Shown in pieces: positions 35,160 to 49,088 of a DNA stretch of 64,000 nucleotides. Source of the DNA: Telluribacter humicola (GTDB lineage Bacteria; Bacteroidota; Bacteroidia; Cytophagales; Spirosomataceae); contig NZ_JAFIQT010000007.1 of the NCBI RefSeq assembly GCF_017355935.1, positions 186,001-250,000 on the forward strand, read 5' to 3'. Position 1 is the stretch's first letter, and every line of letters begins with the position of its first letter. The notes below the pieces were generated by a model. It was not told the origin of the DNA and searched no databases. It saw nothing but the letters and a program-made list of their open reading frames with translations. The translations under genes and the position numbers were made by a program.

Positions 35160-36323
35160 TTACAACCTACTCAATAACTCCCCTGCCCGCTTTAGCGTTT
35201 CATCGTCCTTGGCAAAACAGAAACGAATTATCTTGTAGTCGTTCTTCTGGTTATAGAATACCGACACTGGTATGGACGCCACCCCTATTTCCTTCGTCCA
35301 CCTCACCGCCAGATCGTAGTCATGTTCCTGCGTCATATCACCATAGTATACTGTCTGGAAGAAGGTACCCTGCGAAGGCGTAAACCGGAAGCGGGAATCC
35401 TTGATGGCTTCCAGAAAAAGATCACGCTTGCGCTGGTAAAAGTCCGACAGCTCCAGGTAGTGTTCAGGTATTTTGATGAAATCAGCCAGGGCGTACTGCA
35501 TAGGCGTCATAGTACTGAATGTCACGAACTGGTGTACTTTACGGAACTCCGCCGACAGCGCCGCCGGAGCCAGACAGTACCCGATCTTCCAGCCCGTTAC
35601 GTGGTAGGTCTTACCGAAGGAGCCACAGATAAATGTCCGCTCCTGCAGTACCGGATGCGATAGGAGCGACTGGTGCCGCTGCCCGTCAAACACAATGTGC
35701 TCATACACCTCATCGCTCACCAGCAGGATATCCGTTCCCCGCACCAGGGCCGCCAACTGGTCCAGATCCTCGCGTGTCAGTACTTTACCAATGGGGTTGT
35801 GGGGCGTATTGATCATGATCAGCCGGGTCCGGTCGGTTACTTTCTGCCGTACCTCCTCCCAGTCGATCTGGTAGGCGTTGGCGGGCGTGAGAGTAATGTA
35901 CACCGGTACGCCTCCGCTCAACTCAATGGCCGGCACGTAGCTGTCGTAGGCCGGCTCAAATACCAGTACTTCGTCGCCCGGCCGCACCACCGCCGTCACC
36001 GCCGCATAGATCGCCTCCGTCGCCCCCGATACAATGGTCACCTCCTGCTCGGGGTGGTAGGCTACGCCGTAGTGGTCGAAGGTTTTCTGCGCCAGCGACT
36101 CCCGCAGCGCCGGAACCCCGCTCATGGGTGCGTACTGGTTGAAGCCCTTTTTCATGTAAGAGTTCACCAGTTCCACCAGCTCCGGCGAGCAGTCAAAGCT
36201 CGGAAAGCCCTGCGAAAGATTCAGCGCCCCCACATCCGCCGCCAGTTTGGACATGACCGTAAAGATGGTAGTACCTACGTTAGGGAGTTTGGAGGGTATA
36301 CTGAGAGCAGAAGGTGTGTTCAT
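35160..36323 (-). CDS. Methionine aminotransferase / PLP-dependent class I aminotransferase
   Basis: The protein has 387 residues from the ATG at 36323 (MNTPSALSIPSKLP). An upstream in-frame ATG at 36437 would cross the hairpin at 36373-36416. It has the fold-type I pattern NLSQGFPSFDCSPELVELV, then NTPHNPIGKVLTREDL, SDEVYEHIVFDG, and GSFGKTYHVTGWKIGY carrying the PLP lysine. Pattern and length fit YbdL/kynurenine-aminotransferase-like enzymes, which recycle methionine from its keto acid. Cytoplasmic. No operon partner is nearby. Confidence 0.9.
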   Translation of the reverse strand: MNTPSALSIPSKLPNVGTTIFTVMSKLAADVGALNLSQGFPSFDCSPELVELVNSYMKKGFNQYAPMSGVPALRESLAQKTFDHYGVAYHPEQEVTIVSGATEAIYAAVTAVVRPGDEVLVFEPAYDSYVPAIELSGGVPVYITLTPANAYQIDWEEVRQKVTDRTRLIMINTPHNPIGKVLTREDLDQLAALVRGTDILLVSDEVYEHIVFDGQRHQSLLSHPVLQERTFICGSFGKTYHVTGWKIGYCLAPAALSAEFRKVHQFVTFSTMTPMQYALADFIKIPEHYLELSDFYQRKRDLFLEAIKDSRFRFTPSQGTFFQTVYYGDMTQEHDYDLAVRWTKEIGVASIPVSVFYNQKNDYKIIRFCFAKDDETLKRAGELLSRL

Positions 36324-36372
36324 TTTCTGGTGAATGGGGTACTGGTTATGAAGGACGAAGATAGGAAAAAGT

Positions 36373-36416
36373 ACAGAAGCTTCTTTCTTCCCGGTAAGGA
36401 AGAAAGAAGCTTCTGT
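36373..36416. terminator. Strong hairpin terminator, copy 1
   Basis: A perfect 19-bp stem (acagaagcttctttcttcc and its complement) with a 6-base loop lies upstream of the aminotransferase. A related but imperfect hairpin, with agcttct at the same place in the stem, is at 38399-38436 downstream of the intact efflux gene. This copy sits downstream of the efflux-gene relic. Confidence 0.75.
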
Positions 36417-36433
36417 AGAAATAGAATTAATTA

Positions 36434-36525
36434 TCAATTACTGCATCCACCACCCAGGGTCCGGTAGACGTTCACCACCGCATTGAGCTGCCGCATCATT
36501 TGCCGTTGCTGGTGTTTCTCACCTG
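36434..36525 (-). pseudogene. Relic: C-terminus of an efflux outer-membrane factor gene
   Basis: The minus strand reads MMRQLNAVVNVYRTLGGG followed by CSN and a stop. The intact gene at 38458-39897 ends MQQLNAVVNVYRALGGG followed by WSNQ. About 28 codons remain, then the similarity stops. A terminator hairpin of the same type follows in both copies. Confidence 0.85.
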
Positions 36526-36685
36526 CAACTTATTCACAAGCACCTCATTCGCCGGCGATAACACCGGCAAAGGCATAAACCGTTTTTCGATTGGCTTTAA
36601 ATTTGGCAGCTGCTTGAGCAATATTGAGCTTACCCTGGTGAATTTCAGACACCATTTGGCACATGGTGGGTTCGTGCTGTTGCAT
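36496..36685 (-). pseudogene. Relic of IS3-type transposase OrfA
   Basis: From the ATG at 36685 the frame reads MCQMVSEIHQGKLNIAQAAA, then KFKANRKTVYAF, a helix-turn-helix typical of OrfA of IS3/IS911-like elements. After a shift, LPVLSPANEVLVNKLQV continues in another frame to a stop at 36496. A second scrap encoding LPLPVFSLANEVLV is at 38327-38365 on the same strand, 33 of 39 bases identical to 36537-36575. Assignment to IS3 rests on pattern memory. Confidence 0.5.
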
Positions 36686-37091
36686 GCTTAATTCAATAAG
36701 GTAACCATTTTATAGTCAACATTTTCCAGGACGTGTAAAGCAAATTTTCCCAAACGCTGTAAGAGTACGTTAACATTATTTAACCTATTTATTTACATCA
36801 AATCAGGTCATATTACTAATCTTTGTAGCCGTACCTGTAGAATACATACATCATGCAGTTTGGTATCAGTATTCTTTTCTGAAGAGTAGCAGTTAGACAG
36901 ATTGATTGGTTTGTGATGTTTTATCACTGCTAACCTTAGTGATCATTACTGGCATTACTTGGCCTATAAAATAACAACCTCCTATTCTTACAATAACCTG
37001 TTAGTTTTGCTTAACTGTACAAGGGGTTTATAATCTAATAAGTGTCAGTAATTTTTATTTATCCATAATTTACTTAAATGCGCAGAAACGC
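36686..37091. other. AT-rich intergenic region upstream of the TlpA-like gene
   Basis: No gene is visible. It probably carries the promoter of the gene at 37092 (AT-rich, with ttttgctt near 37005 and tttataatcta near 37028). Confidence 0.4.
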
Positions 37092-38294
37092 ATGATGAAG
37101 ACTTTGTTAGGATTGGTAATAGCAGGCTGGTTGGTCTTTCCAACGACAACCCAGGCTCAGGACATCAGCCTCACCGATGTTTTGAATAAAGTAAACCAAG
37201 CCGTCCTAAAACTGGACCAAGGTCAGTTTACATTTCACGATAGGATTACCAAACACGTCGCAGATGATGACTCATCTTATACAGAGTATACAATAAAATG
37301 CTTCTTCAAAAGCACTCCTGGCGACTCAGTAATGGGGTATCAGTTAGCTTCGTTTAGAGAAGATGGCTATCATCAGCAGATATATGATGGCAACAATCTT
37401 TTCACCGTCATTGGCGAAACTCTCGAAGTAACCGGTAAGCAGACTCACTCCGGTAGGATAAAAGAACAGCTTGAGAACGCAGAGTCAACTTATCTGATCA
37501 ATACCAATCGAGCTCTTCAAGACTTCAACCAGCCGTCTTCTGCTCAGTACATCCGCAATCTGCTCCCGGACTATTACCTGGGCGAAAAATGCTATAAGTT
37601 GACAATTGAATATCCGGGAGATTCACTGAGAACTTCTAAAATTAGCTATTATATATCAGCCAATTCGTTTCTTCCCATAAGAACGGTCTTGACCCTAACA
37701 TCAATTGTTGGGAAAGTGAAAGAAACGCAGATTTTTGATTACTCGATCACGGGTATGAGCAAAGAGCCACTTGAAGCCAACCAATTCAGCCGGGAAAAAC
37801 TATCCAACTACCGCATCGAGAAGAATTACGACCCTTCGGAAAAATACGCCAGAGATGAGTTGTTACCAATCGGTTCGCCTGCCCCCAATTGGAAGTTGCC
37901 CCTGATCAGCGGCGATACACTGGCCCTGGCTGACCTTAGAGGCAAAATTGTCATAATGGACTTTTGGTTCAAAGCCTGTGCCCCCTGCCAGCAGCAAATG
38001 ATTTCACTGCAGGCGTTCCATGAAAAGTTCCCTTCAAGTGAGGTGGCTTTTGTTGGCGTCAACACGATAGATGATCCGAAAAAGGACCGCCTGGAGATGT
38101 TTTTGAAAAACAGACTCATCAGCATGCCCGGCGTTTACAAGGGCAATTTGATACAACCGCTTTATAATGTTCATGGTGCACCTGCTTTGTTTATCATCGA
38201 TAAGCAGGGAGTAATTGTCTATACAGTTTCCGGCTATTTATCTAAAACAGGAAGCGAAATTGAACAGATTATCATGAAACACCTGAAACAATGA
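37092..38294 (+). CDS. TlpA-like thiol-disulfide oxidoreductase
   Basis: This is a 400-residue protein with a signal peptide (MMKTLLGLVIAGWLVFPTTT, then QAQ). An N-terminal beta-rich domain (about 25-255) of the type found in Bacteroidota DUF4369/outer-membrane lipoprotein-sorting-like proteins follows. A thioredoxin fold completes it: GSPAPNWKLPLISGDTLALA, IVIMDFWFKACAPCQQQM (redox pair CAPC), then GAPALFIIDKQGVIVY with the cis-proline. It acts in the periplasm on disulfides. Copies of a transposase scrap and of the efflux-gene end on both sides suggest that this gene arrived on an inserted segment. Confidence 0.88.
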   Translation: MMKTLLGLVIAGWLVFPTTTQAQDISLTDVLNKVNQAVLKLDQGQFTFHDRITKHVADDDSSYTEYTIKCFFKSTPGDSVMGYQLASFREDGYHQQIYDGNNLFTVIGETLEVTGKQTHSGRIKEQLENAESTYLINTNRALQDFNQPSSAQYIRNLLPDYYLGEKCYKLTIEYPGDSLRTSKISYYISANSFLPIRTVLTLTSIVGKVKETQIFDYSITGMSKEPLEANQFSREKLSNYRIEKNYDPSEKYARDELLPIGSPAPNWKLPLISGDTLALADLRGKIVIMDFWFKACAPCQQQMISLQAFHEKFPSSEVAFVGVNTIDDPKKDRLEMFLKNRLISMPGVYKGNLIQPLYNVHGAPALFIIDKQGVIVYTVSGYLSKTGSEIEQIIMKHLKQ

Positions 38295-38326
38295 ATCATA
38301 TTCAATGAAGTGTTTTCATTAATCTA

Positions 38327-38365
38327 CAAGTACCTCATTTGCCAGTGAGAACACCGGCAAAGGCA
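38327..38365 (-). repeat. Second transposase scrap flanking the TlpA-like gene
   Basis: 33 of 39 bases match 36537-36575 in the same orientation. The minus strand reads LPLPVFSLANEVLVD then stops, matching LPVLSPANEVLV of the other copy. Confidence 0.6.
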
Positions 38366-38398
38366 GAAAGGCAGAAAAGGAGACAGCAGAAAAGCAAA

Positions 38399-38436
38399 AA
38401 AGCTTCTCCCCTCCCAGCCGGGAAGAGGAGAAGCTT
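38399..38436 (-). terminator. Terminator hairpin of the efflux operon, copy 2
   Basis: Arms aagcttctcc... and ...ggagaagctt form a stem with two mismatches. It lies downstream of the outer-membrane factor stop on the minus strand and is related to 36373-36416. Confidence 0.6.
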
Positions 38437-38457
38437 CTGTATTAGAAAAACAAGTAC

Positions 38458-39897
38458 TTATTGATTACTCCATCCCCCACCCAGGGCCCGGTATACATTC
38501 ACCACGGCATTCAGCTGCTGCATTTTGGTTTCAACCAGTTGGAATCGGGACTCCTGCGCATCGCGCTGGGTCAGCAGTACCTCCATGTAGTCGGCTCGCG
38601 CTGAGTTGAACAGGCTATTGGAGATAGTAATTGACCGGGTAAGTGCCTCTACCTCCTTTGATTTGACCTGATAGCTTTGTTGCAGGTTACTGATCTTTGC
38701 CAGCTGATTGGCCACCTCCATATAAGCGTTCAGAATGGTACGTTCATAGTTATAAACGGCCTGAATCTGGCTGGCATTGGCATTGAAGTAGGCGGCGGTG
38801 ATCGCGTTCTTGTTGATCAGGGGTGCCGCTACATCACCCGCCAGAGAGAAGATCAGCGACTGGGGCGTCTTCAGCAGGTAAGCCGGATTAAAAGCCTGAT
38901 ACCCTAGGCCTGCCGAAATACCCAACGTAGGATAGAACCGGGCTTTGGCTACCTGTACATCCAGCTTGGCGGCTGCCAGCTCCTGCTCGGCCTGCCGGAT
39001 ATCCGGACGGTTGGCCAGTAGCTGCGCCGGAATTCCGGTCTGAATGGTGACAGGTACCAGATTATTGAAATTCTGCGAGTTTCTGGCCACCGGCTGCGGG
39101 TAGCGACCTACCAGGAAGTTGATCCGGTTTTCGGTTTCGATGATCTGCTGCTGGATACCGTACTGCAGATTCTGGGTATTAAGTACCTGAGCTTCAAACC
39201 GCTGTACGGCCAGTTCGGTCACGCGGGTAGCCTCTTTCTGTAGCCGCACCACTTTCAGCGCATTAGTCTGAATCTCGATATTCTGCCGTACTATTTCCAG
39301 CTCATTATCCAGCGCCAGTAGCTCATAGTACGAAGTAGCAATTTCAGCGACCAGGTTGGTAGTTGTGAAGTTTCTTCCTTCCACACTGGCCAGGTAGCGG
39401 TGTACCGCTGCTTTTTTGGCGTTACGCAGCTTATGCCAGATATCCACCTCCCAGGTAGCAACGGCTCCTCCTACAAAGTTGGGTAGCGGTTCCGGTATTT
39501 CCTTTCCCGGCTTCATTTCAGACGAAGCCTCCGTAGCGCCCAGCAGTGTGTAACGACCTACCTTATCAACCCCAGCTCCGCCACGCAGTCCTACCGAGGG
39601 CAGGTACTCACCCTGTCTGGCCCGGATTTCATTGCGGGCAATCTCAATCTCCTGTCTCGTGATGTTCAGCTCCTGGTTGTTGGACAGCGCCGTATCGATC
39701 AGAGAGACCAGGTAGGGATCAGTATAAAACTCCCTCCACTGCATCCGAGCCGAGTTGGTGGTGTCCTGCGAGCCGTTGAAGCTCGCAGGTACTATCCTGT
39801 GCTCTGTTTTGGTAATGATAGCCGGGGTTTTACAAGCCGCAAAAGCGAACGACAAACCAGCTACTACCAGGCATCTATATACTATTTTTCTATACAT
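38458..39897 (-). CDS. RND efflux outer-membrane factor (OprM/NodT lipoprotein)
   Basis: The 479-residue protein has a lipoprotein signal (MYRKIVYRCLVVAGLSFAFA followed by ACKTP). Two outer-membrane-efflux-protein repeats follow; both halves contain the long coiled-coil helices and the LLANRPDIRQAEQELAAAK motif typical of NodT/OprM. It forms the trimeric channel through the outer membrane. Its start overlaps the end of the pump gene by 8 bp, so it is the last gene of the efflux operon. The C-terminal 28 codons are duplicated as a relic at 36434. Confidence 0.95.
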   Translation of the reverse strand: MYRKIVYRCLVVAGLSFAFAACKTPAIITKTEHRIVPASFNGSQDTTNSARMQWREFYTDPYLVSLIDTALSNNQELNITRQEIEIARNEIRARQGEYLPSVGLRGGAGVDKVGRYTLLGATEASSEMKPGKEIPEPLPNFVGGAVATWEVDIWHKLRNAKKAAVHRYLASVEGRNFTTTNLVAEIATSYYELLALDNELEIVRQNIEIQTNALKVVRLQKEATRVTELAVQRFEAQVLNTQNLQYGIQQQIIETENRINFLVGRYPQPVARNSQNFNNLVPVTIQTGIPAQLLANRPDIRQAEQELAAAKLDVQVAKARFYPTLGISAGLGYQAFNPAYLLKTPQSLIFSLAGDVAAPLINKNAITAAYFNANASQIQAVYNYERTILNAYMEVANQLAKISNLQQSYQVKSKEVEALTRSITISNSLFNSARADYMEVLLTQRDAQESRFQLVETKMQQLNAVVNVYRALGGGWSNQ

Positions 39898-42800
39898 GAT
39901 TATTGCTACTTTCTTCGGTTACTGGAAATGCATCTAACTGGTGAACCAGACCTTCGGTCAGCGATTCATCCTCTTCATCTTTGATCATCTTACGGCCATC
40001 GGCCAGGTGGGCAAATATGTAGTACAGCCCGGGGATGATGATAACCCCAAAAATGGTTCCGAATAGCATACCTCCCAGCGCCGAAGCACCAATGGTACGG
40101 TTACCGATAGCCCCGGCACCCGTCGCGATGATCAAAGGAATCAGACCCGCAATAAAGGCGAATGAGGTCATCAGGATCGGGCGGAAACGAACCTTGGCTC
40201 CTTCAATGGCCGCCTCAAATATAGTGGCTCCCTCGTGACGCTTCAGAACCGCAAACTCTACGATCAGTACCGCGTTCTTACCCAACAGACCCACGAGCAT
40301 GATGAGACCGATCTGGGCGTAAATGTTGTTTTCCAGTCCCATGAGTTGCAGCACCAGGAACGAACCAAATACCCCCACCGGCAGCGAGAACACCACCGCC
40401 AACGGAATGATAAAGCTCTCATACTGGGCGGCCAACACAAAGTACACAAAGGCCAGTACTATGGCGAATACGTACAGCGACTCGTTACCGCGGGTAGACT
40501 CGTCATATGATAGACCTTCCCAGGCGATATCGTACCCTTTGGGCAGGGTTGTGGCGGCTACTTCCTGAATGGCCTTGATGGCATCAGCCGTGGTATACCC
40601 CTTGGCCGGAAGTCCCTGGATAGCGGCCGAGTTGTACATGTTGAAGCGGGTAATTTCATTGGGTCCCTGCGACTTTTTCAGTCTCATGAAGGCCGAGTAC
40701 GGTACCATTTCTCCCGCCTCATTCTTCACATACAGGTTCAGCAGATCGGAGGGTAGTCTTCTGAACTTCGGATCAGACTGCACGTATACCTTAAAGAACT
40801 GGTTGAACTTCGTAAAGCCCTGCTCGTAGGTACTACCAATCATGATGTTGAGGTTATCCATTGCTTTTCCGATCGATACGCCCTTCTGCATCGCCAGATT
40901 ATTGTCTATCTCCAGTTCGTACTGCGGATAATTGGCCGCGAAGAAGGTGAACAAGCCCGTAAGCTCATTGCGCTTAGCCAGGTTATCCATGAACTCCTGA
41001 TTGATCTTGTCAAACTCGTGGTAGTCGGTGTCGCTGTTCTTATCCAATAAGCGCATTGAGAAACCACCCGAGGTACCAAAGCCCGGAATAGCCGGTGGCT
41101 CAAAGAATTCAACGACCGCCCCAAGATCTTTGGACTTCTCTTCCAGCTCTTCCATGATTTCCTTCACGGTATGATGGCGATCCGACCAGTCTTTAAGGTT
41201 GATCAGACAGGTACCGGCGTTGGAACCCCGACCTTCGGTCATGATCTCGTAACCGGCCAGAGACGATACTGATTCTACTCCATCGATCTCTTCACAAATC
41301 TTCTGAAGCCGTTGCGAAACCTGGTTGGTTTTTTCCAGCGTCGAACCCGGAGGCGTCTGGATAATGGCGTAGATCGTACTCTGGTCTTCGTTTGGAATAA
41401 ATCCGGAAGGCACGATCAGGTTTTCGTAGAATATACCCGCGCCAAAGGCCAGCAGGACTCCAAACGTAAGCCATCTGCGGCTAACGATGGAGGTTAACAG
41501 GCGTACGTACCGGCCGGTCAGTTTATCAAATCCACGGTTAAAGCTGTCGAGTGACCGGGTAAGGATGTTTGATTTCTTGGCGTGCCCATGGTGGCCATTT
41601 CCATGGTGGCTCTTCAACAGCATGGCGCACAATACCGGAGTAAGCGTAAGGGCGATGATGGCTGAGATCACGATGGAGCTAGCCATGGTAATGGAGAACT
41701 GACGATAGAAAGTACCGACCGGACCCGACATAAATGAGATGGGCAGGAACACCGACACCATAACCGCCGTGATGGCAATGATCGCGCCGCTGATTTCACC
41801 GAGTACTTTCTTGACCGCGGCATAGGGCGTTAGATGAGGCTCTTCTTCCATCTTGGCATGGACGGCCTCCACTACCACAATCGCGTCATCCACCACAATA
41901 CCAATCGCCAGTACCAGCGCAAACAGCGTAACCAGGTTGATCGAAAGTCCGAAGAACTGGATCACAAAGAACGCTCCGATCAACGATACCGGCACCGCCA
42001 GGATCGGGATGAGGGTCGAGCGCCAGTCGCCCAGGAATATGAATACCACCAGGGCTACCAGTATGAACGCGTCGCGCAAGGTATGGATCACCTGCTCAAT
42101 AGAGGCATCCAGGAACTTGGAGACGTCGTAGCTGATCTTGTAATCCATGCCCGGAGGGAAGAAAGGCTTCATTTCCTCGAGCTGGGCTTTTACATCGGCA
42201 ATTACATCACTGGCATTACTACCGTAGTTCTGCTTCAATACAATAGCCGCCGAAGGACGACCATCCAGGTTGGAGTAGATGTCAAAGAATTCACTTCCCA
42301 GTTCTACCGTAGCGATATCCTTCAGGTGAATGCTCTCCCCTTCGGAATTGGCCCGGATAATAATACTCTCGTACTCTTCGGGCTTATTGTACCGGCCCTT
42401 GTAGGTAAGTACGTATTCCAGCGATTGGGCGGCTATACCGGAGCTTTGGCCTAACCGGCCCGGACGTCCGATGATACTCTGCTCACCCAAGGCCTTCATC
42501 ACTTCCTCGGTCGAGATGTTGTAGGCCCGCATGCGGTCAGGGTTCAGCCACACACGCATGGCGTAACGCCGGCTACCCAATATCTGCGCCCGCGCTACCC
42601 CTTTGATCCGCTGGATTTCCGGGATCATCTTTACGGTGGCGTAGTTGAACAGAAATTTTTCGTCCATGCTCCTTTCCTTCGAATAGAGATTGACGTACAT
42701 CAACATACTGGGCTGGATAGGCGTAATCACCACCCCCTCGCGCTGTACCAGCTCGGGTAGCAGGGGCATTACCTGGTCTACCCTTGTTTTTACCCGGATC

Positions 42801-43111
42801 ACCGCATCATTGGGGTCAGTACCCGGTTCAAAGATTACCCTTAGCGTAGCCTCACCGGCACTGGTGGCATCCGTAGCGATATAGCGCATATCCTGCACCC
42901 CGTTGATGGCGTTTTCGAGGGTAATCAGGGTTGACTTCACCAGTACATCGGCACTGGCTCCGGGATAAGCAATGAAGATATTGACGGTAGTGGGGGCAAT
43001 CTCGGGGAACTGCGAAATAGGCAGCTTCTTGATGGCCAGAACACCCACGAAAACAATCATGACCGATATTACAATAGCAAATACGGGTCTGCGTATGAAC
43101 TTATTAAACAT
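39890..43111 (-). CDS. RND efflux pump, HAE1 family
   Basis: This 1073-residue inner-membrane protein has twelve transmembrane helices and two large periplasmic loops. It begins MFNKFIRRPVFAIVISVMIV. The proton-relay pair of aspartates is in ALVLAIGIVVDDAIVVVEAV, and the C-terminal half repeats the pattern (GLIMLVGLLGKNAVLIVEFA). This is the AcrB/MexB type, which exports hydrophobic drugs by proton antiport. It is downstream of the adaptor gene by 25 bp and upstream of the outer-membrane factor, giving a complete tripartite pump. Confidence 0.97.
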   Translation of the reverse strand: MFNKFIRRPVFAIVISVMIVFVGVLAIKKLPISQFPEIAPTTVNIFIAYPGASADVLVKSTLITLENAINGVQDMRYIATDATSAGEATLRVIFEPGTDPNDAVIRVKTRVDQVMPLLPELVQREGVVITPIQPSMLMYVNLYSKERSMDEKFLFNYATVKMIPEIQRIKGVARAQILGSRRYAMRVWLNPDRMRAYNISTEEVMKALGEQSIIGRPGRLGQSSGIAAQSLEYVLTYKGRYNKPEEYESIIIRANSEGESIHLKDIATVELGSEFFDIYSNLDGRPSAAIVLKQNYGSNASDVIADVKAQLEEMKPFFPPGMDYKISYDVSKFLDASIEQVIHTLRDAFILVALVVFIFLGDWRSTLIPILAVPVSLIGAFFVIQFFGLSINLVTLFALVLAIGIVVDDAIVVVEAVHAKMEEEPHLTPYAAVKKVLGEISGAIIAITAVMVSVFLPISFMSGPVGTFYRQFSITMASSIVISAIIALTLTPVLCAMLLKSHHGNGHHGHAKKSNILTRSLDSFNRGFDKLTGRYVRLLTSIVSRRWLTFGVLLAFGAGIFYENLIVPSGFIPNEDQSTIYAIIQTPPGSTLEKTNQVSQRLQKICEEIDGVESVSSLAGYEIMTEGRGSNAGTCLINLKDWSDRHHTVKEIMEELEEKSKDLGAVVEFFEPPAIPGFGTSGGFSMRLLDKNSDTDYHEFDKINQEFMDNLAKRNELTGLFTFFAANYPQYELEIDNNLAMQKGVSIGKAMDNLNIMIGSTYEQGFTKFNQFFKVYVQSDPKFRRLPSDLLNLYVKNEAGEMVPYSAFMRLKKSQGPNEITRFNMYNSAAIQGLPAKGYTTADAIKAIQEVAATTLPKGYDIAWEGLSYDESTRGNESLYVFAIVLAFVYFVLAAQYESFIIPLAVVFSLPVGVFGSFLVLQLMGLENNIYAQIGLIMLVGLLGKNAVLIVEFAVLKRHEGATIFEAAIEGAKVRFRPILMTSFAFIAGLIPLIIATGAGAIGNRTIGASALGGMLFGTIFGVIIIPGLYYIFAHLADGRKMIKDEEDESLTEGLVHQLDAFPVTEESSNNHV

Positions 43112-43136
43112 GTCTTACGATAGTTAGGATACCTGA

Positions 43137-44225
43137 TTATTCCGCGTACAAATCCAGCTGAGACAGGACAGTACCAGGCTCCACGAATTTTGAGTGTATC
43201 TTTTCATTCTCCCGCACCAGGCGCAAGCCCTCCAGCAGGATCTTATCATTCTTATTCAGCCCTTTCTCAACCACGAAGATGTGGGGTAACTCAGCGGCTA
43301 CGGTGATCTCTCTGGACCTGATCACATTGTCTTTATCCACCACGTATACATACTTCTTGTCCAGTACCTCGAAGGTGGCTTTCTGCGGGATGATCAGAGC
43401 GTTGCTCAGCGGTACCTTCATCTGTACGTTACCGGTTTCACCATGTCTCAGTAGCTTATCGGGGTTGGGGAAAGTAGCCCGGAAGGCAATGTTTCCGGTC
43501 TCGTTATTGAAGTCCGCTTCGATGGTTTCTACAACACCTCCCTGGTTGAACAGCTTGTTGTTAGCCAGGAGCAGGTTTACTTTGGTCTGTCTTTCATTTT
43601 TAACCTGCGCTTTATAATCCAGGTACTCCGCCTCGGGTACGTTGTAGTACACCCACATTTTGCTGTTGTCCGAAAGCGTAGTCAACAGGTCTCCCTCATC
43701 CACAAGACTACCCAACCTGACCTGAAAATGATCCATGATGCCGGAGAAGGGCGCTCTGATCTGCGTGAACTGCAGATGGGTCTGTGCCAGTGACAGTTCT
43801 GCTTTGGCCTTGTCCAGTTTAGCCTTGGCCAGCGCCAGTTCATTTTTGGATACGACGTTGTCATCCGCCAGCTTCTTGGTATTCTGGTATTCAAGCTCTA
43901 CGTAGTTAACCTCCGCCTCTGCTTTCTGCTGCTCAGCCTGGTACAGCATGGGCATGATCTGAAACATCAGCTGCCCTTTCTGTACATACTGCCCTTCGTC
44001 CACGTAGATCTTCTGCAGGTAGCCTTTTTCTAATGCCCTGAGCTCAATATGTTGTATGGAGCGAACCTGAGCTACGTACTCTTTGATAACCGTGGTATCC
44101 TTCTGTAAGGGACTGGTCACCAGGAAGCTGGTTTTTTCTTCCTTGGGTTCTTCCTCTTCTTTGTGGGCGTAGGTGGAACAGCCCATCATGGCGCACAAGC
44201 CCATGAACACGAGTAGTTGCTTCAT
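43137..44225 (-). CDS. RND efflux periplasmic adaptor (membrane fusion protein)
   Basis: The protein has 362 residues from the ATG at 44225. A GTG 18 bp upstream would add MKNKIS and is less likely. Lipoprotein signal: MKQLLVFMGLCAMMGC. The biotinyl-lipoyl-like part is VDEGQYVQKGQLMFQIMP, followed by the helical hairpin (AELSLAQTHLQFTQIRAPFS) and a beta-barrel (FRATFPNPDKLLRHGETGNV). It joins pump and outer-membrane channel in the periplasm. First pump gene of the operon. Confidence 0.95.
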   Translation of the reverse strand: MKQLLVFMGLCAMMGCSTYAHKEEEEPKEEKTSFLVTSPLQKDTTVIKEYVAQVRSIQHIELRALEKGYLQKIYVDEGQYVQKGQLMFQIMPMLYQAEQQKAEAEVNYVELEYQNTKKLADDNVVSKNELALAKAKLDKAKAELSLAQTHLQFTQIRAPFSGIMDHFQVRLGSLVDEGDLLTTLSDNSKMWVYYNVPEAEYLDYKAQVKNERQTKVNLLLANNKLFNQGGVVETIEADFNNETGNIAFRATFPNPDKLLRHGETGNVQMKVPLSNALIIPQKATFEVLDKKYVYVVDKDNVIRSREITVAAELPHIFVVEKGLNKNDKILLEGLRLVRENEKIHSKFVEPGTVLSQLDLYAE

Positions 44226-44286
44226 ACTGATTTTATTTTTCACACGAATTTTCTTTTAAGGATTAGTAAGTGTGGGCCTGGCCCTA

Positions 44287-44601
44287 TTAATGAATTGCCG
44301 GATGGGGAGAAGTACCCGAGGCGCGCTGAGCAGTACTTCTGGGCACGGGAGGGGCGTTAGAGACCTGCTCCAGGTGACGAATCAGGCTATCTTTCTGGTC
44401 GATAGCCCATTTGCAATCTGATAGTTGCTGTTGAAAAGCCTTATTATCCACCTGCTGGTGTGAGATCCGTAATCCGGCGTCATAGAGGCTCCGCTGACGG
44501 ATCAGGTTGTAAAGCAGGTACCCGTTGAACACCAGCGAAAGAGCCAGTGCCAGCCCAAAGCCGTAGAGCAGAATAGAAGCGGAAGAATGACGACGTTGCA
44601 T
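44287..44601 (-). CDS. Small membrane protein of the efflux locus
   Basis: The 104-residue protein has one transmembrane helix (about 9-32, SILLYGFGLALALSLVFNGYL). A short periplasmic helical segment (FQQQLSDCKWAIDQKDSLIRH) and a Pro/Ser/Ala tail follow. Not recognised as a family. It lies between the histidine kinase and the adaptor gene on the same strand, 61 bp before the adaptor, and may be part of the transcript. Its role may be sensory or structural; this is inference. Confidence 0.65.
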   Translation of the reverse strand: MQRRHSSASILLYGFGLALALSLVFNGYLLYNLIRQRSLYDAGLRISHQQVDNKAFQQQLSDCKWAIDQKDSLIRHLEQVSNAPPVPRSTAQRASGTSPHPAIH

Positions 44602-44683
44602 AGCTTGTGTCTGAAATTATGACACAAAGCAACCACCGTAACATTAAAACGGTATGAGAAGGAAATTAGAAGTTATTAGAAGC

Positions 44684-46039
44684 TCAGTCCTGTCGGGGCA
44701 AATGTATGGTTACCGTAGTACCCTGGTTAAGGCTGGAGTTGATCTGGAGGGTCCCCTGGTGCAGGTCTATGATCTTCTGCGTCACAGCCAGGCCAATGCC
44801 ATAGCCCGATACTCCCTCCACATTAGTACCCCTGTAGAGTGGGTCCAGTATGTGCGCGGCGTCGGCTTCGGCAATACCCCGCCCGCGGTCAGTTACTGTT
44901 ACCGTGACTTGTTCGTCCGTGGCCTGCAGCTGTACCGCTACCGGGTCGCTGGAGTACTTACAGGCATTATCCAGTACATTCAGCAGGGCGGTGGTCAGCA
45001 ACGTGGAGCTGCCTTTTACCGTGACTAGGTCTTCCTCCGTCATCATGAATTGCAGCGGCAGGCTCCGGCCGGGGTACTTGGCCTGCACCTGCTCGATGGC
45101 CGTCAGCAGACAATCATCCACCTGTACGGTGGTGAGGTTAACCGTTCCGTCGGTGACCTTGGCTAAGCCCAGCAGACCATTGGTCAGGGCTATGACCTTT
45201 TTCAGCTCTTCCACGGCCACTTCCATGCTTTCGCGCCAGTCAGCGGGGTCTTTGTCGTACCGCAGGGAGGTTTCCAGGGTACCCAGGGTGTTGGTGAGCG
45301 GGGTACGCAACTCGTGCGATGCGTGGGAAACAAAGCTGCGCTGGGATACAAACGCGTCCTCCAGCCGAAAGAGCATCCGGTTAAAGGTCATGGCCAGCTG
45401 GGCGATTTCATCCCGCCGGTTGCCTTCGTTGACCCGCTTGTGCAGGTCCACGGCCGTAATCTGCTCCACTTCATCCACGATCTGTGAGATGGGCTTAAGT
45501 ACCCGCCCCGAGAAGTACCAGCCCGCCAGTACCGTCAGCGAAAACCCCAGCAGGTTGGCCAGCAGCAGGATTTGTTGCAGGGTACCCTGCTTGGCAAAGC
45601 CAATGCGGTCGTAGCCGGAGGCAAATATATAGAACAACTGCCCCCGGTCCCGGTAAGGCAGTACGATCGACTCCAGGTGACCGCTCCTGAACTCGAACAG
45701 CGACTCGCTGGTCAGCTGCGGGATCTTCTCTTTGAAATAGTCGGATTCTTTGAGATTGCGGTTGGTAAATACCAGGTTGTGCTGACTATCGTAAATGCTG
45801 ATCTGCTCCTCCACGATGGTGAGCAGGTCGGTGCGTACCATGTTCTCAAAAAAGTTATCGTGCAGATGCCGCTGCGATATCAGAATACGTCCGGTCAGGC
45901 GGGCCTTGCCCTCTAGTATGTTATAAAACTCCTCCTGACGGTACAGCGAATAGAAGTACCACACCAGCAGCGACAGCGTGACCTGAATGGCCATGGTCAG
46001 CAGCGTAAAAATAAGCGTCAGTCGGTTTCGTATCAGCAT
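44684..46039 (-). CDS. Sensor histidine kinase with HAMP domain (efflux regulator)
   Basis: The 451-residue protein has transmembrane helices at about 8-30 and 155-176, enclosing a periplasmic sensor of about 120 residues. A HAMP domain (177-230, GRVLKPISQIVDEVEQI) follows, then HisKA with His242 in SHASHELRTPLT, and the ATPase (LLNVLDNACKYSSD, DRGRGI, GYGIGLAVTQ). It phosphorylates the OmpR-type regulator 58 bp upstream in the operon, and this pair probably controls the adjacent RND pump, as CzcRS/CusRS-type pairs do. Confidence 0.95.
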   Translation of the reverse strand: MLIRNRLTLIFTLLTMAIQVTLSLLVWYFYSLYRQEEFYNILEGKARLTGRILISQRHLHDNFFENMVRTDLLTIVEEQISIYDSQHNLVFTNRNLKESDYFKEKIPQLTSESLFEFRSGHLESIVLPYRDRGQLFYIFASGYDRIGFAKQGTLQQILLLANLLGFSLTVLAGWYFSGRVLKPISQIVDEVEQITAVDLHKRVNEGNRRDEIAQLAMTFNRMLFRLEDAFVSQRSFVSHASHELRTPLTNTLGTLETSLRYDKDPADWRESMEVAVEELKKVIALTNGLLGLAKVTDGTVNLTTVQVDDCLLTAIEQVQAKYPGRSLPLQFMMTEEDLVTVKGSSTLLTTALLNVLDNACKYSSDPVAVQLQATDEQVTVTVTDRGRGIAEADAAHILDPLYRGTNVEGVSGYGIGLAVTQKIIDLHQGTLQINSSLNQGTTVTIHLPRQD

Positions 46040-46097
46040 GGAGGTGGTTAGGCCCGGGGTTGGGAGGAAATATTATTTTAGGTATCCATAGTGAAGC

Positions 46098-46769
46098 TTA
46101 GCTCTCACGAAGGACGTACCCCATGCCCACGATGGTGTGTAGCAGCTTGGGCGAAAAGTCCTTATCGATCTTCTTGCGCAGGTAGCTGATATACACGTCG
46201 ATCACGTTGGTATTGCTGTCAAAGTTCAGGTTCCAGACGCGCTCGCTGATGTCCACCCGCGAGATGATCTTGCCCTTGTTGAGCATCATGTACTCCATCA
46301 GGGAGTACTCCCGGGTCGTAAGGTCGATGCGCTGGCCGGCCCGGGTTACGGTTTTGGTATCCAGGTTCAGTTCCAGATCGGCCAGCCGGAGTACCTGCTT
46401 CTGCTTGGGGCTGTTGCGGCGCGTCAGAGCCCGGATGCGCAGCAGCAACTCCTGAAACTCGAATGGTTTGGCGAGGTAGTCGTCTGCCCCCGCGTTGAAG
46501 CCATCGGCCTTGTCGGCCAGGCTGTCAAGCGCGGTGAGCATCAGCACAGGTACCGTCTCATTTTCCTGACGGATCAGCTTACACAGCTCAAAACCATTGA
46601 TCTGCGGCAAGTTCACATCCAGTATGATAATGTCGTAGGGATCTTTCCGAAACAGCGACAGACCGGTACGCCCATCGAACGCCACGTCGACTTCGTACCC
46701 CTCGGCCGATATCCCTTTGCGGATAAATGATACCATCCGCTCTTCGTCTTCAACTAAAAGTACTTTCAT
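46098..46769 (-). CDS. OmpR-family response regulator
   Basis: The 223-residue protein has a receiver with acidic residues VEDEE, phospho-acceptor Asp51 (DIIILDVNLPQ) and Lys in YLAKPFEFQEL. A winged-helix DNA-binding domain follows (about 128-223, LDTKTVTRAGQRIDLTTREY, then SNVIDVYISYLRKKID). It belongs to the CusR/CopR-like branch. It is the first gene of the locus, partner of the histidine kinase, and probably activates the RND operon downstream. Confidence 0.95.
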   Translation of the reverse strand: MKVLLVEDEERMVSFIRKGISAEGYEVDVAFDGRTGLSLFRKDPYDIIILDVNLPQINGFELCKLIRQENETVPVLMLTALDSLADKADGFNAGADDYLAKPFEFQELLLRIRALTRRNSPKQKQVLRLADLELNLDTKTVTRAGQRIDLTTREYSLMEYMMLNKGKIISRVDISERVWNLNFDSNTNVIDVYISYLRKKIDKDFSPKLLHTIVGMGYVLRES

Positions 46770-47052
46770 GGAATACTATGGGTTGCGTATGCGCCTTTAA
46801 TGGCAATAGCTCAAGCAGGTACTGCCGGAGGTTGTTTTACTTCGAAGAGCCTGAAGCCGGTTTAGCTCCGTACTTGCCAGTTTAACTGCAAAGATACTGA
46901 AGATTAATTTTCTGGATAGAAACTATTTAGAGACTAGTACCTACATACCGTTACATAAGTTTTCAAACAATAGGTTGGAAAACAGTTCGTATAGGTACTA
47001 TTTTAGAAGGCACGCAGTAACCAATTGAGTCCGAGCCCTACTCCATGGTTAC
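46770..47052. other. Intergenic region between efflux regulator and AT-rich gene
   Basis: It should hold the promoter of the two-component/efflux operon. GC content falls sharply from about 46900 onward. No other gene was seen. Confidence 0.45.
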
Positions 47053-47078
47053 ATTATTTATAATTAATTATAAATAAT
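47053..47078. promoter_or_regulatory. Perfect 26-bp palindrome at the start of the AT-rich gene
   Basis: Two 13-bp arms (attatttataatt and its exact complement) meet without a loop. The first ATG of the gene (47077) uses the palindrome's last two bases. It could be an operator for a dimeric regulator or an RNA hairpin that hides the start. If it is an operator, the better start is the ATG at 47113. Confidence 0.6.
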
Positions 47079-49024
47079 GAAATTCATATTTCACAATTTA
47101 AGTAAAGCTATAATGAACAAAATAATATCACATGAACTATCTAAGTTTGGTAAAGTTGACATAGCCCTCCATAAAGAATCAGCCATTTTCTACGATTTAT
47201 TAGAAGAAAAAGGCATAATAAACTATTTAAAAAATCTTGATCATCTAGGTTTTATATCAAAGTCACACCCTGGGAATAATCATAAAAGGTGGGATTATGT
47301 AATGCTCCAACTATATATCTTACACAAGCTTAAAGACGAGGTTTTTAGAACAGGTTTAAGTAGTGGACATAGAATAGATGGTAGACATGAAGTATCCGGC
47401 TTAGTTATTTTACAAATTGCAGTTTTCTTTTCAAACATAGGCCATTTAAAAGGCACTTTATCATCTGAGGTTGGCTTTCTCGACTTTTTAGAAAGGAACA
47501 ACTATGCAAAGTCTGACTTCCTAAGTAATATCTCGGACAGTCAAGATTGGATGGATTTTACAAATAATATTATAAACAATAAAGACTATTACAAAATTAA
47601 GTATATCATAGCATTAAATTTTTTTAAAGAACCACAACACAAACCCTCTCATTGAGAGAATAGTATTATCATTCTTCAAAAGCTCTCTTACAAATGACGA
47701 ACCTAAGCTCAGGAAGCTAAAATGGATATTCAATAAAGTAAGGCAAATAAGCTTTATGTACTTAGATAGTTTCAATAGTGACTTCCCATTTTTAATTGAC
47801 ATCACTAAAATCCTTTTAAATACATTTAACTACAAATCTGTCTTCAACCCAAATTCATCTGACTTTGAGGGATTTTACGACTCATCAGAAACTACACTTA
47901 CAAAAAAATTATATATCTCTCCATACGCTTCTTTACTTTATGAATATAATAAAGTGAATTTCATAGAGTACCTTTCGAACGAGTCTAAAAGAAAAGGCAA
48001 TAATAAATTAACGTTCGATGACTTCTTTATCAACCTAACTAATAGAAAGGAATTTGAAATAATAACTCCTAATGGGTTGAAGTGCTACCAGTTCTATCTA
48101 TCTAAAGAAGATATAGAGATCTGTGGAATTAAGCAAGAGCTATTCAATTATGAAGAGGCAATCTTAAACAACTACCAAAGACAGAGCGATTTCAACTCAT
48201 TATTAAATAGAAAATTATCATCCAAGAAGAATAGAGTATCTTTGATACATGACGGAAGAAAGTCTTTATTCTTCAACAACCTAATTATTGACTTCAACTC
48301 AATCACGAAGCAAGAGCAGAGCCAATTCCTATTGAATTACTTTAACGTACATTTGAATTTTATTAGTAGCTTTAAATATAATTATAGCTTACAGAGTTTC
48401 AAGTCTTTTGCTACACCTTTCTTACTAAAACATTATTCAAGGAAAGTTTTCCTACAACTCTGCAAGATCTTATTCTATTACGATCATGACCTTAGCGCTT
48501 ATATAAAATTTGACAACCATCAATTAATATCAAATCTATCAAAATCAATAACTGAGTTCCACCCCACAGGATTTCTTAAAACTAAGTCATCCTTCGTAGG
48601 CTTACTTAATAGATATTTACAAATCAATGAAATACCTAGCGACATAAAGAATAATTATAGATTAGCCAAACATATAGTAGAAACTGTAACTACTATTGAT
48701 CGCAACTTCAATGTATTCTACTGCCTATTTCCTATTGAATTGGATAAATATGAATTAAACCCCGACAGGCTTTATAAGCTACAGAATCCAGAGAGCGTTA
48801 AGCCTATTACAGATATTGACCTCATGTTCGTCATATTTAACAGTAGCAAATTTGAATTATATATTCTCGAAGGAAAAGACCAATCTAGCGGCTTTGAATC
48901 AGCTGTTAGACAAGACTTCACACAAAGAATAATACCTAATTTTAGATTTCCAGATGCTGCACCAACAATTCAAATAGTCAATATAGACCAAGCAAAAGGT
49001 GGCTATATATGTTTCAGTAATTAA
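47077..49024 (+). pseudogene. AT-rich gene with one frameshift: HD-like N-terminus, possible PD-(D/E)XK C-terminus
   Basis: Two frames (47077-47655 and the +1 frame continuing to 49024) join into one of about 648 codons if one T is removed from the T7 run at 47619-47625. The N-terminal part resembles an HD fold: NNHKRWDYVMLQLYILHKL (67-85), then HEVSGLVILQIAVFFSNIGH (104-123). FSNIGH stands where active enzymes have LHDIGH, so the metal site looks degenerate. The last 80 residues have an Asp in DIDLMFVIF and LYILEGKDQ, an arrangement like PD-(D/E)XK nucleases. The base composition (about 30 percent GC) and codon use differ from all neighbours, indicating transfer. It could be a defence gene. 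The frameshift may be real decay, phase variation, transcript slippage or a sequencing error. Confidence 0.65.
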
Positions 49025-49088
49025 TTAATGGACATGAAATAGTCAAATACAAGCTCACAAAGTACCATGTCCTACACCAAGTTGACCA

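Follow-up and report, generated by a model that had tools for sequence, protein, structure and literature searches.

A candidate single-chain protein family with a SAMHD1-like domain lacking metal ligands and a nuclease-like C-terminus, represented by a frame-interrupted, AT-rich gene in Telluribacter humicola

The window, i.e., the whole stretch of 64,000 nucleotides of Telluribacter humicola DNA analysed here, carries on its forward strand an AT-rich gene that is divided between two overlapping reading frames (Table 1). The first start codon in frame 2 is at position 47756, and this frame has no further stop. On the left the gene is flanked by an RND-type efflux operon with a kinase and a regulator, and on the right by an AraC-type regulator and an old-yellow-enzyme type gene, all named by reading their sequences. 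The GC content of positions 47077-49024 is 30.9%, compared with 48.7% for the window outside positions 46801-49056. Segments of the same size sliding over the window outside the gene have a mean GC content of 48.6% (sd 4.3) and a minimum of 37.2%, and the gene lies below this minimum, in agreement with the description of an AT-rich foreign gene in an earlier note on this DNA.

Table 1. Features of the gene and of its surroundings (window positions).
Feature	Position	Strand	Remarks
N-terminal piece, 192 aa	47077..47655	+	Frame 1 ORF; SAMHD1/COG1078-like HD core begins here, metal ligands replaced
C-terminal piece, 468 codons	47618..49024	+	Frame 2; remaining helical part and C-terminal nuclease-like domain
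Frame overlap	47618..47655	+	Site of reading-frame change
HLG, SAMHD1 Gln149-Leu150 positions	47242..47250	+	Alignment of 10 intact relatives
NHKRWDY, Arg at the Arg164 position, Tyr at the position of metal ligand His167	47278..47298	+	
FSNIGH, Ser-Asn replacing the metal pair His206/Asp207, His at the His210 position	47428..47445	+	
TDID, acidic residue(s) of presumed PD-(D/E)XK core	48809..48820	+	In the model, between two short strands or where they start
E-G-K, Glu and Lys of presumed PD-(D/E)XK core	48869..48877	+	End of next model strand, then helix
Segment without counterpart in one same-genus genome (G219)	46812..49056		2.2 kb; flanks match different contigs

The frame split in the window copy is either a mutation or an assembly error. 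It is excluded as a family trait because both nearest intact relatives have a single frame throughout the corresponding region. The whole protein is probably no longer made from the window copy, and the two pieces were used separately, unjoined, in all analyses. The nearest relative, a protein of 638 aa from an uncultured Bacteroidetes (L016), has 67% identity to the N-terminal piece and 63% to the C-terminal piece. Substitutions relative to this protein amount to 0.90 per synonymous and 0.19 per nonsynonymous site in the N-terminal piece (168 codons), and to 0.92 and 0.22, respectively, in the C-terminal piece (464 codons). With synonymous changes near saturation and nonsynonymous changes low, purifying selection has acted over most of the divergence from L016, and the frame break is probably young or artificial, judging from these rates.

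Horizontal acquisition of the gene is supported by its low GC content, the lack of a same-genus counterpart and its rarity in its own taxonomic family, in agreement with the transferred state claimed earlier. The C-terminal piece was found by single-sequence search in one of 222 genomes of this taxonomic family, which was its own genome, and the GC content of the gene was below that of its flanks in 7/7 family loci measured (L055-L057 left out). In the same-genus genome G219, the sequence matching window positions 40001-46811 is on contig C20, and that matching position 49057 onward is on contig C3. A simple empty site was rejected because the left and right flanks are on different G219 contigs, and the gene is located at a rearrangement boundary, not in a clean insertion. 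Past the right flank, the G219 DNA partly matches window positions 35233-36372; past the left flank, it has its matches on other contigs of the genome from which the window comes. Window positions 35233-49057 are rearranged relative to G219 (compared with L041 and L042). A search for flanking repeats gave no convincing pair around the gene. The 10-mer TAATTAATTA, which is short and AT-rich, is present at both gene ends (47061-47070 and 49018-49027). A separate 27-base sequence just past the G219 synteny break (L042, 9963-9989) is perhaps an insertion-sequence end; in the genome containing the window, contig C1 has it twice, in opposite orientations and with 100 and 96% identity.

The gene belongs to an unnamed family of single-chain proteins of about 600-640 residues. 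Ten intact distinct relatives of 597-638 aa were identified in Bacteroidota, one Deltaproteobacteria MAG and one Peribacillus plasmid, and the subgroups of the family share 16-20% identity. The ten intact members are L016, G344 (L008), Neolewinella aquimaris, Wenyingzhuangia gilva, Flavobacterium omnivorum, the Deltaproteobacteria MAG, the Peribacillus plasmid, G1176 (L055), G1132 (L056) and G1216 (L057). Its occurrence is patchy: the N-terminal piece matched 4/395 genomes of the phylum at E ≤ 0.01, its own included, and a single plasmid, that of Peribacillus, and the family HMM found members in 3/299 and 2/150 genomes of two taxonomic families, with the query genome included in each. An alignment-based pattern scan of genome contigs returned 65 stretches and 5 confirmed loci, two of them already known (G363, G399). 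Two finds were left out of the member count, namely a weak match in G409 (E 9.3e-4 over 45 profile positions) and an isolated Priestia plasmid ORF (152 aa). This ORF, on plasmid pBMG4 (L007:12058-12516), resembles the C-terminal part of the family alone and may be a nuclease part that stands free or has been cut down; it adjoins a DUF6602 gene and is a few kb from dndC-dndE.

The statement that no known family could be recognised agrees with the profile searches. The two window pieces had no match at E ≤ 0.01 in Pfam, PADLOC, NCBIfam and PHROGs. The same threshold gave none for the G344, F. omnivorum, Neolewinella and Peribacillus members in PADLOC, Pfam and NCBIfam, for the G1216 member in Pfam alone, or for the L016, G344, Neolewinella, Deltaproteobacteria and Peribacillus members in PHROGs. 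In PADLOC-DB 2.0.0 there were 0 matches even at E ≤ 1 for the C-terminal piece and four of the ten intact relatives. Weaker matches were taken as chance, i.e., that of the N-terminal piece to the PADLOC "2TM" effector (E 0.014), those in Pfam and NCBIfam with E no lower than 0.05, such as photolyase and RacA, those in PHROGs at 0.05 or higher and those of the C-terminal piece in PDB. Searches of phages and viral contigs with the window pieces as single queries, of plasmids with the C-terminal piece, of phages with the relatives, and scans of viral sequences for patterns from two alignments of the family gave no match, and a phage-borne origin is unsupported by these empty phage and viral searches. 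With the relatives as queries, the plasmid search returned that Peribacillus record again, plus one fragment from Priestia.

The N-terminal part is well supported, by profile comparison and a predicted structure, as having the SAMHD1/COG1078-type dNTPase fold. Besides its own genome, the family HMM picked up 11/345 Bacteroidia genomes (E 2.4e-6 to 9.7e-4), where the matched open frames of 407-449 codons encode HD phosphohydrolases (COG1078) with LLHDIGH in 11/11. A profile of four of these proteins hits BT4208 (2q14), EF1143 (2o6i) and SAMHD1 in PDB, and its hhalign comparison with the family gave E 2.9e-6 and probability 88 over 104 columns. Use of residues 1-330 from 7 members gave a longer, low-confidence alignment (E 1.2e-6, probability 91). 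Searched directly against PDB sequences, the family HMM had a sole match at E ≤ 10, EF1143 (2o6i; E 0.8).

Structure prediction points to the same fold. AlphaFold2 predicted the Wenyingzhuangia member with pLDDT 79.8 and pTM 0.76, and this model had 71 Foldseek matches in PDB at E ≤ 0.001, the best 50 of which were all SAMHD1 or EF1143. Target-normalised TM-scores of 0.38-0.49 with rmsd of 8 Å or more were found for SAMHD1 chains, and TM-scores of 0.25-0.26 with rmsd of about 20 Å for EF1143; such modest scores and high rmsd values mean that the fold is common to both and the details are not. The model of the L016 protein was poor (pLDDT 53) and had no PDB match at E ≤ 0.001, with dNTPase-type HD proteins at ranks 1-24. 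A Megaviridae HD protein was the one entry of the viral structure library to reach E ≤ 0.001, and further HD proteins of giant viruses narrowly missed this threshold; the match reflects the HD fold only. The "HD-like segment" noticed earlier is thus a real, degenerate HD site, and it is part of a full dNTPase-type fold and no stray segment, as judged from profile comparison and Foldseek. The middle part of the protein (about residues 250-500) is variable among the relatives.

The active site within this fold has been altered in a uniform way. Human SAMHD1 residue numbers were assigned from the spacing of invariant columns in an alignment of the HD proteins, with residue roles from PMC7045340. 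Among the 10 intact members, the His167 position is occupied by Tyr in 10/10, the Asp207 position by Asn in 10/10, and the His206 position by Ser in 8, Ala in 1 and Asn in 1. The window copy, with Tyr, Asn and Ser at His167, Asp207 and His206, respectively, has likewise lost the first three metal ligands. The helix with the fourth ligand, Asp311, was not reliably placed by hhalign. Other positions of the pocket have been kept: Leu150 and Arg164 are retained in 10/10 and His210 in 8/10 (Tyr in 2), and the Gln149 position carries His in 9/10 and Gln in 1/10. All three retained residues are present in the window copy, together with His at the Gln149 position. The earlier note had singled out H69, H104 and FSNIGH. 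The first is located in NHKRWDY in a column invariant relative to the 10 intact relatives, and FSNIGH was found as described with its Asn equally invariant; H104 has no conserved counterpart among the relatives.

The H206R/D207N form of SAMHD1 coordinates no metal and has no catalysis; it binds dNTPs in an inactive state, and many dNTP-bound SAMHD1 structures have been solved with it, according to PMC7045340. The family-wide fixed replacement with conserved substitutes has the look of a binding site without catalysis; on this pattern of residues, dNTP binding can be proposed and dNTP hydrolysis is probably absent. Loss of the HD doublet has another natural example in the Caenorhabditis elegans SAMHD1 homologue ZK177.8 (PDB 6pwy), with LLRNVGHGPFSH at the metal doublet and LLRN replacing LLHD.

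The C-terminal domain is likely a PD-(D/E)XK-type DNA or RNA nuclease, as suggested by its conserved residues and its modelled structure. The D-x16-E-G-K arrangement pointed out earlier was found, its Asp (codon 48818) being the second one in TDID. This Asp and the Glu and Lys of ExK are invariant in 10/10 intact members, and the first Asp of TDID is kept in 9/10. Since the H69, SN-Asn and D/E/K columns are kept despite the low identity across subgroups, their conservation is beyond chance. In the Wenyingzhuangia model, where the nuclease-like region has a pLDDT of about 90, the C-terminus consists of a helix, strands with the Asp between them, E-x-K ending the next strand, a helix and two strands. 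A strand-strand-helix order of this kind is expected in PD-(D/E)XK nucleases.

Recognition of the nuclease fold by remote homology, which the earlier note had proposed, was not achieved: Pfam and PDB sequence searches returned no nuclease, and hhalign of the C-terminal profile against 6 restriction or PD-(D/E)XK-type single sequences, assigned partly by eye, gave no significant match, the best E being 0.059 with probability below 1%, compared with E 0.52-0.70 for three unrelated controls. These searches, none of which recognised the fold, leave some room for the view that the domain is no nuclease and that its D...ExK resembles a nuclease core by accident, the domain having a binding function. 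This seems very improbable to us considering the invariance of D, E and K across such divergent subgroups and the expected order of strands and helix.

Known or candidate defence genes adjoin 5/10 intact relatives, a raw count without matched control that is biased upward by the choice, by eye, of the 20 neighbour proteins scanned near relatives. The G344 member is adjacent to a YhcG/DUF1016 gene, with an 84-aa ORF between them, followed by a type ISP restriction enzyme. The L016 member is directly adjoined by an Abi-alpha-like gene (below the Pfam cut-off) and PDC-S54, and AbiEi and AbiEii genes are about 1.4 kb upstream. The Peribacillus plasmid member adjoins a PtuA-like/PDC-M01A ATPase with its PDC-M01B partner, and an annotated integrase is also present; in the Deltaproteobacteria MAG, an EVE gene with a REase_II-like match is 40 bases upstream. 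The G1216 member has AAA and DUF4276 genes (HEC-01-like) upstream on the same strand, a VWA-like gene 24 bases downstream (below the Pfam cut-off and without PADLOC match) and a Fic gene nearby, a layout (L057:7307-12460) hinting at a multi-gene arrangement in this divergent member. A Fic-type gene 1.3 kb from the Neolewinella member (PADLOC SoFic, E 4.4e-15) was excluded from the defence count.

Elsewhere the surroundings are ordinary. The F. omnivorum, Wenyingzhuangia and G1176 members look lone, their neighbours being judged by eye, and the two G1132 neighbours scanned had no PADLOC match. No defence neighbour was found among the 10 scanned around the window copy, of which 3 had profile matches, to regulator, kinase or aminotransferase types. 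The description of the gene as a typical single-gene defence system therefore fits the half of the relatives that adjoin defence genes, and does not fit the others and the window copy, which are found among ordinary genes, a setting that the earlier note itself had counted against its reading. Such loci, together with the plasmid-borne member, would suit a mobile accessory gene acting outside phage defence, for example in plasmid conflict, DNA repair or nucleotide-stress response. We regard this as decidedly unlikely, as the defence genes adjoining five members are of varied kinds and the patchy occurrence and transfer of the family suit defence. The family may well serve in phage defence.

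SAMHD1-type enzymes restrict viruses by draining dNTPs. The reading preferred here, to which we give nearly an even chance, is that of a receptor and effector in one chain, in which a nucleotide sensed by the dead dNTPase domain would control the nuclease; the gene, horizontally acquired and now interrupted in the window, would serve against phages. The N-terminal part, having lost the metal-binding His and His-Asp of the SAMHD1-type fold and retained the base- and phosphate-contact positions, would bind a deoxynucleotide or related nucleotide without hydrolysis, like H206R/D207N SAMHD1. Binding or loss of this ligand during phage replication might switch on the PD-(D/E)XK-type nuclease at the C-terminus, and the activated nuclease would cut DNA or RNA and so stop the infection.

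The dead SAMHD1-like part could instead bind nucleic acid, not free nucleotides, and so bring the nuclease to DNA or RNA that is foreign or damaged, in the manner of a restriction factor independent of any nucleotide signal. Allosteric sites of SAMHD1 are reported to bind nucleic acid (PMC7854603), the variable middle part could read nucleic acid, and restriction-type genes are at or near 2/10 members (G344 and the Deltaproteobacteria MAG). The pocket columns (Leu150, Arg164 and the substituted Tyr and Asn) are, however, among the most conserved, where binding at a surface would allow drift, and we consider delivery by nucleic-acid binding unlikely. A broader form of the nucleotide-receptor reading, that in at least three bacterial phyla a naturally dead SAMHD1 fold serves as a nucleotide receptor coupled to a nuclease within the same polypeptide, with an immune role, is put forward tentatively and with some doubt. 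If true, an antiviral dNTPase fold has been turned from an enzyme into a nucleotide sensor. The natural dead site resembles the laboratory H206R/D207N form, and binding without hydrolysis is therefore directly testable on the intact relatives. The earlier note as a whole had the list of parts right; its N-terminal domain was incomplete and the function it proposed is unproven.

The proposed mechanism is plausible because comparable logic operates in the published Gabija and Clover systems. The Gabija nuclease is held off by NTP and dNTP and released on their depletion by phage (PMC10822852), and the likeness lies in this logic of a nucleotide-held nuclease, published for Gabija and proposed for the family. 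GajA is an OLD-family nuclease with the SF1-helicase partner GajB, and no domain common with the family was found. In Clover, dTTP activates the HD dGTPase CloA and p3diT keeps it inactive (PMC12265719); here the likeness is that of an HD dNTPase fold in an anti-phage, nucleotide-controlled role. CloA is an active dGTPase with the partner CloB, whereas the family has a dead site, a fused nuclease-like domain and no constant partner seen. In the Foldseek search with the poor L016 model, CloA was at rank 44 with E 1.0, i.e., at chance level. Unlike in the CloB pairing, no nucleotidyltransferase was recognised by eye adjoining the gene in the window; a nucleotidyltransferase pair is some 7 kb from the family gene in the G344 locus, and since there is none beside the window gene, such pairing is not constant. 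Apart from the HD fold common with CloA, no defining feature of Clover or Gabija was found. Among the open-licence literature matches listed, none described the fusion of a SAMHD1-like domain to a PD-(D/E)XK nuclease, which does not prove that such a description is absent. A third comparison is with the SAMHD1/COG1078 dNTPases (EF1143, BT4208), which have in common with the family the fold, the N-terminal sequence register, Leu150 and Arg164. The family differs from these enzymes by lacking the first three metal ligands in all ten intact members, and with them probably the hydrolysis, and by adding a middle part and a C-terminal nuclease-like part; the underlying fold is known, and the family built on it is unnamed.
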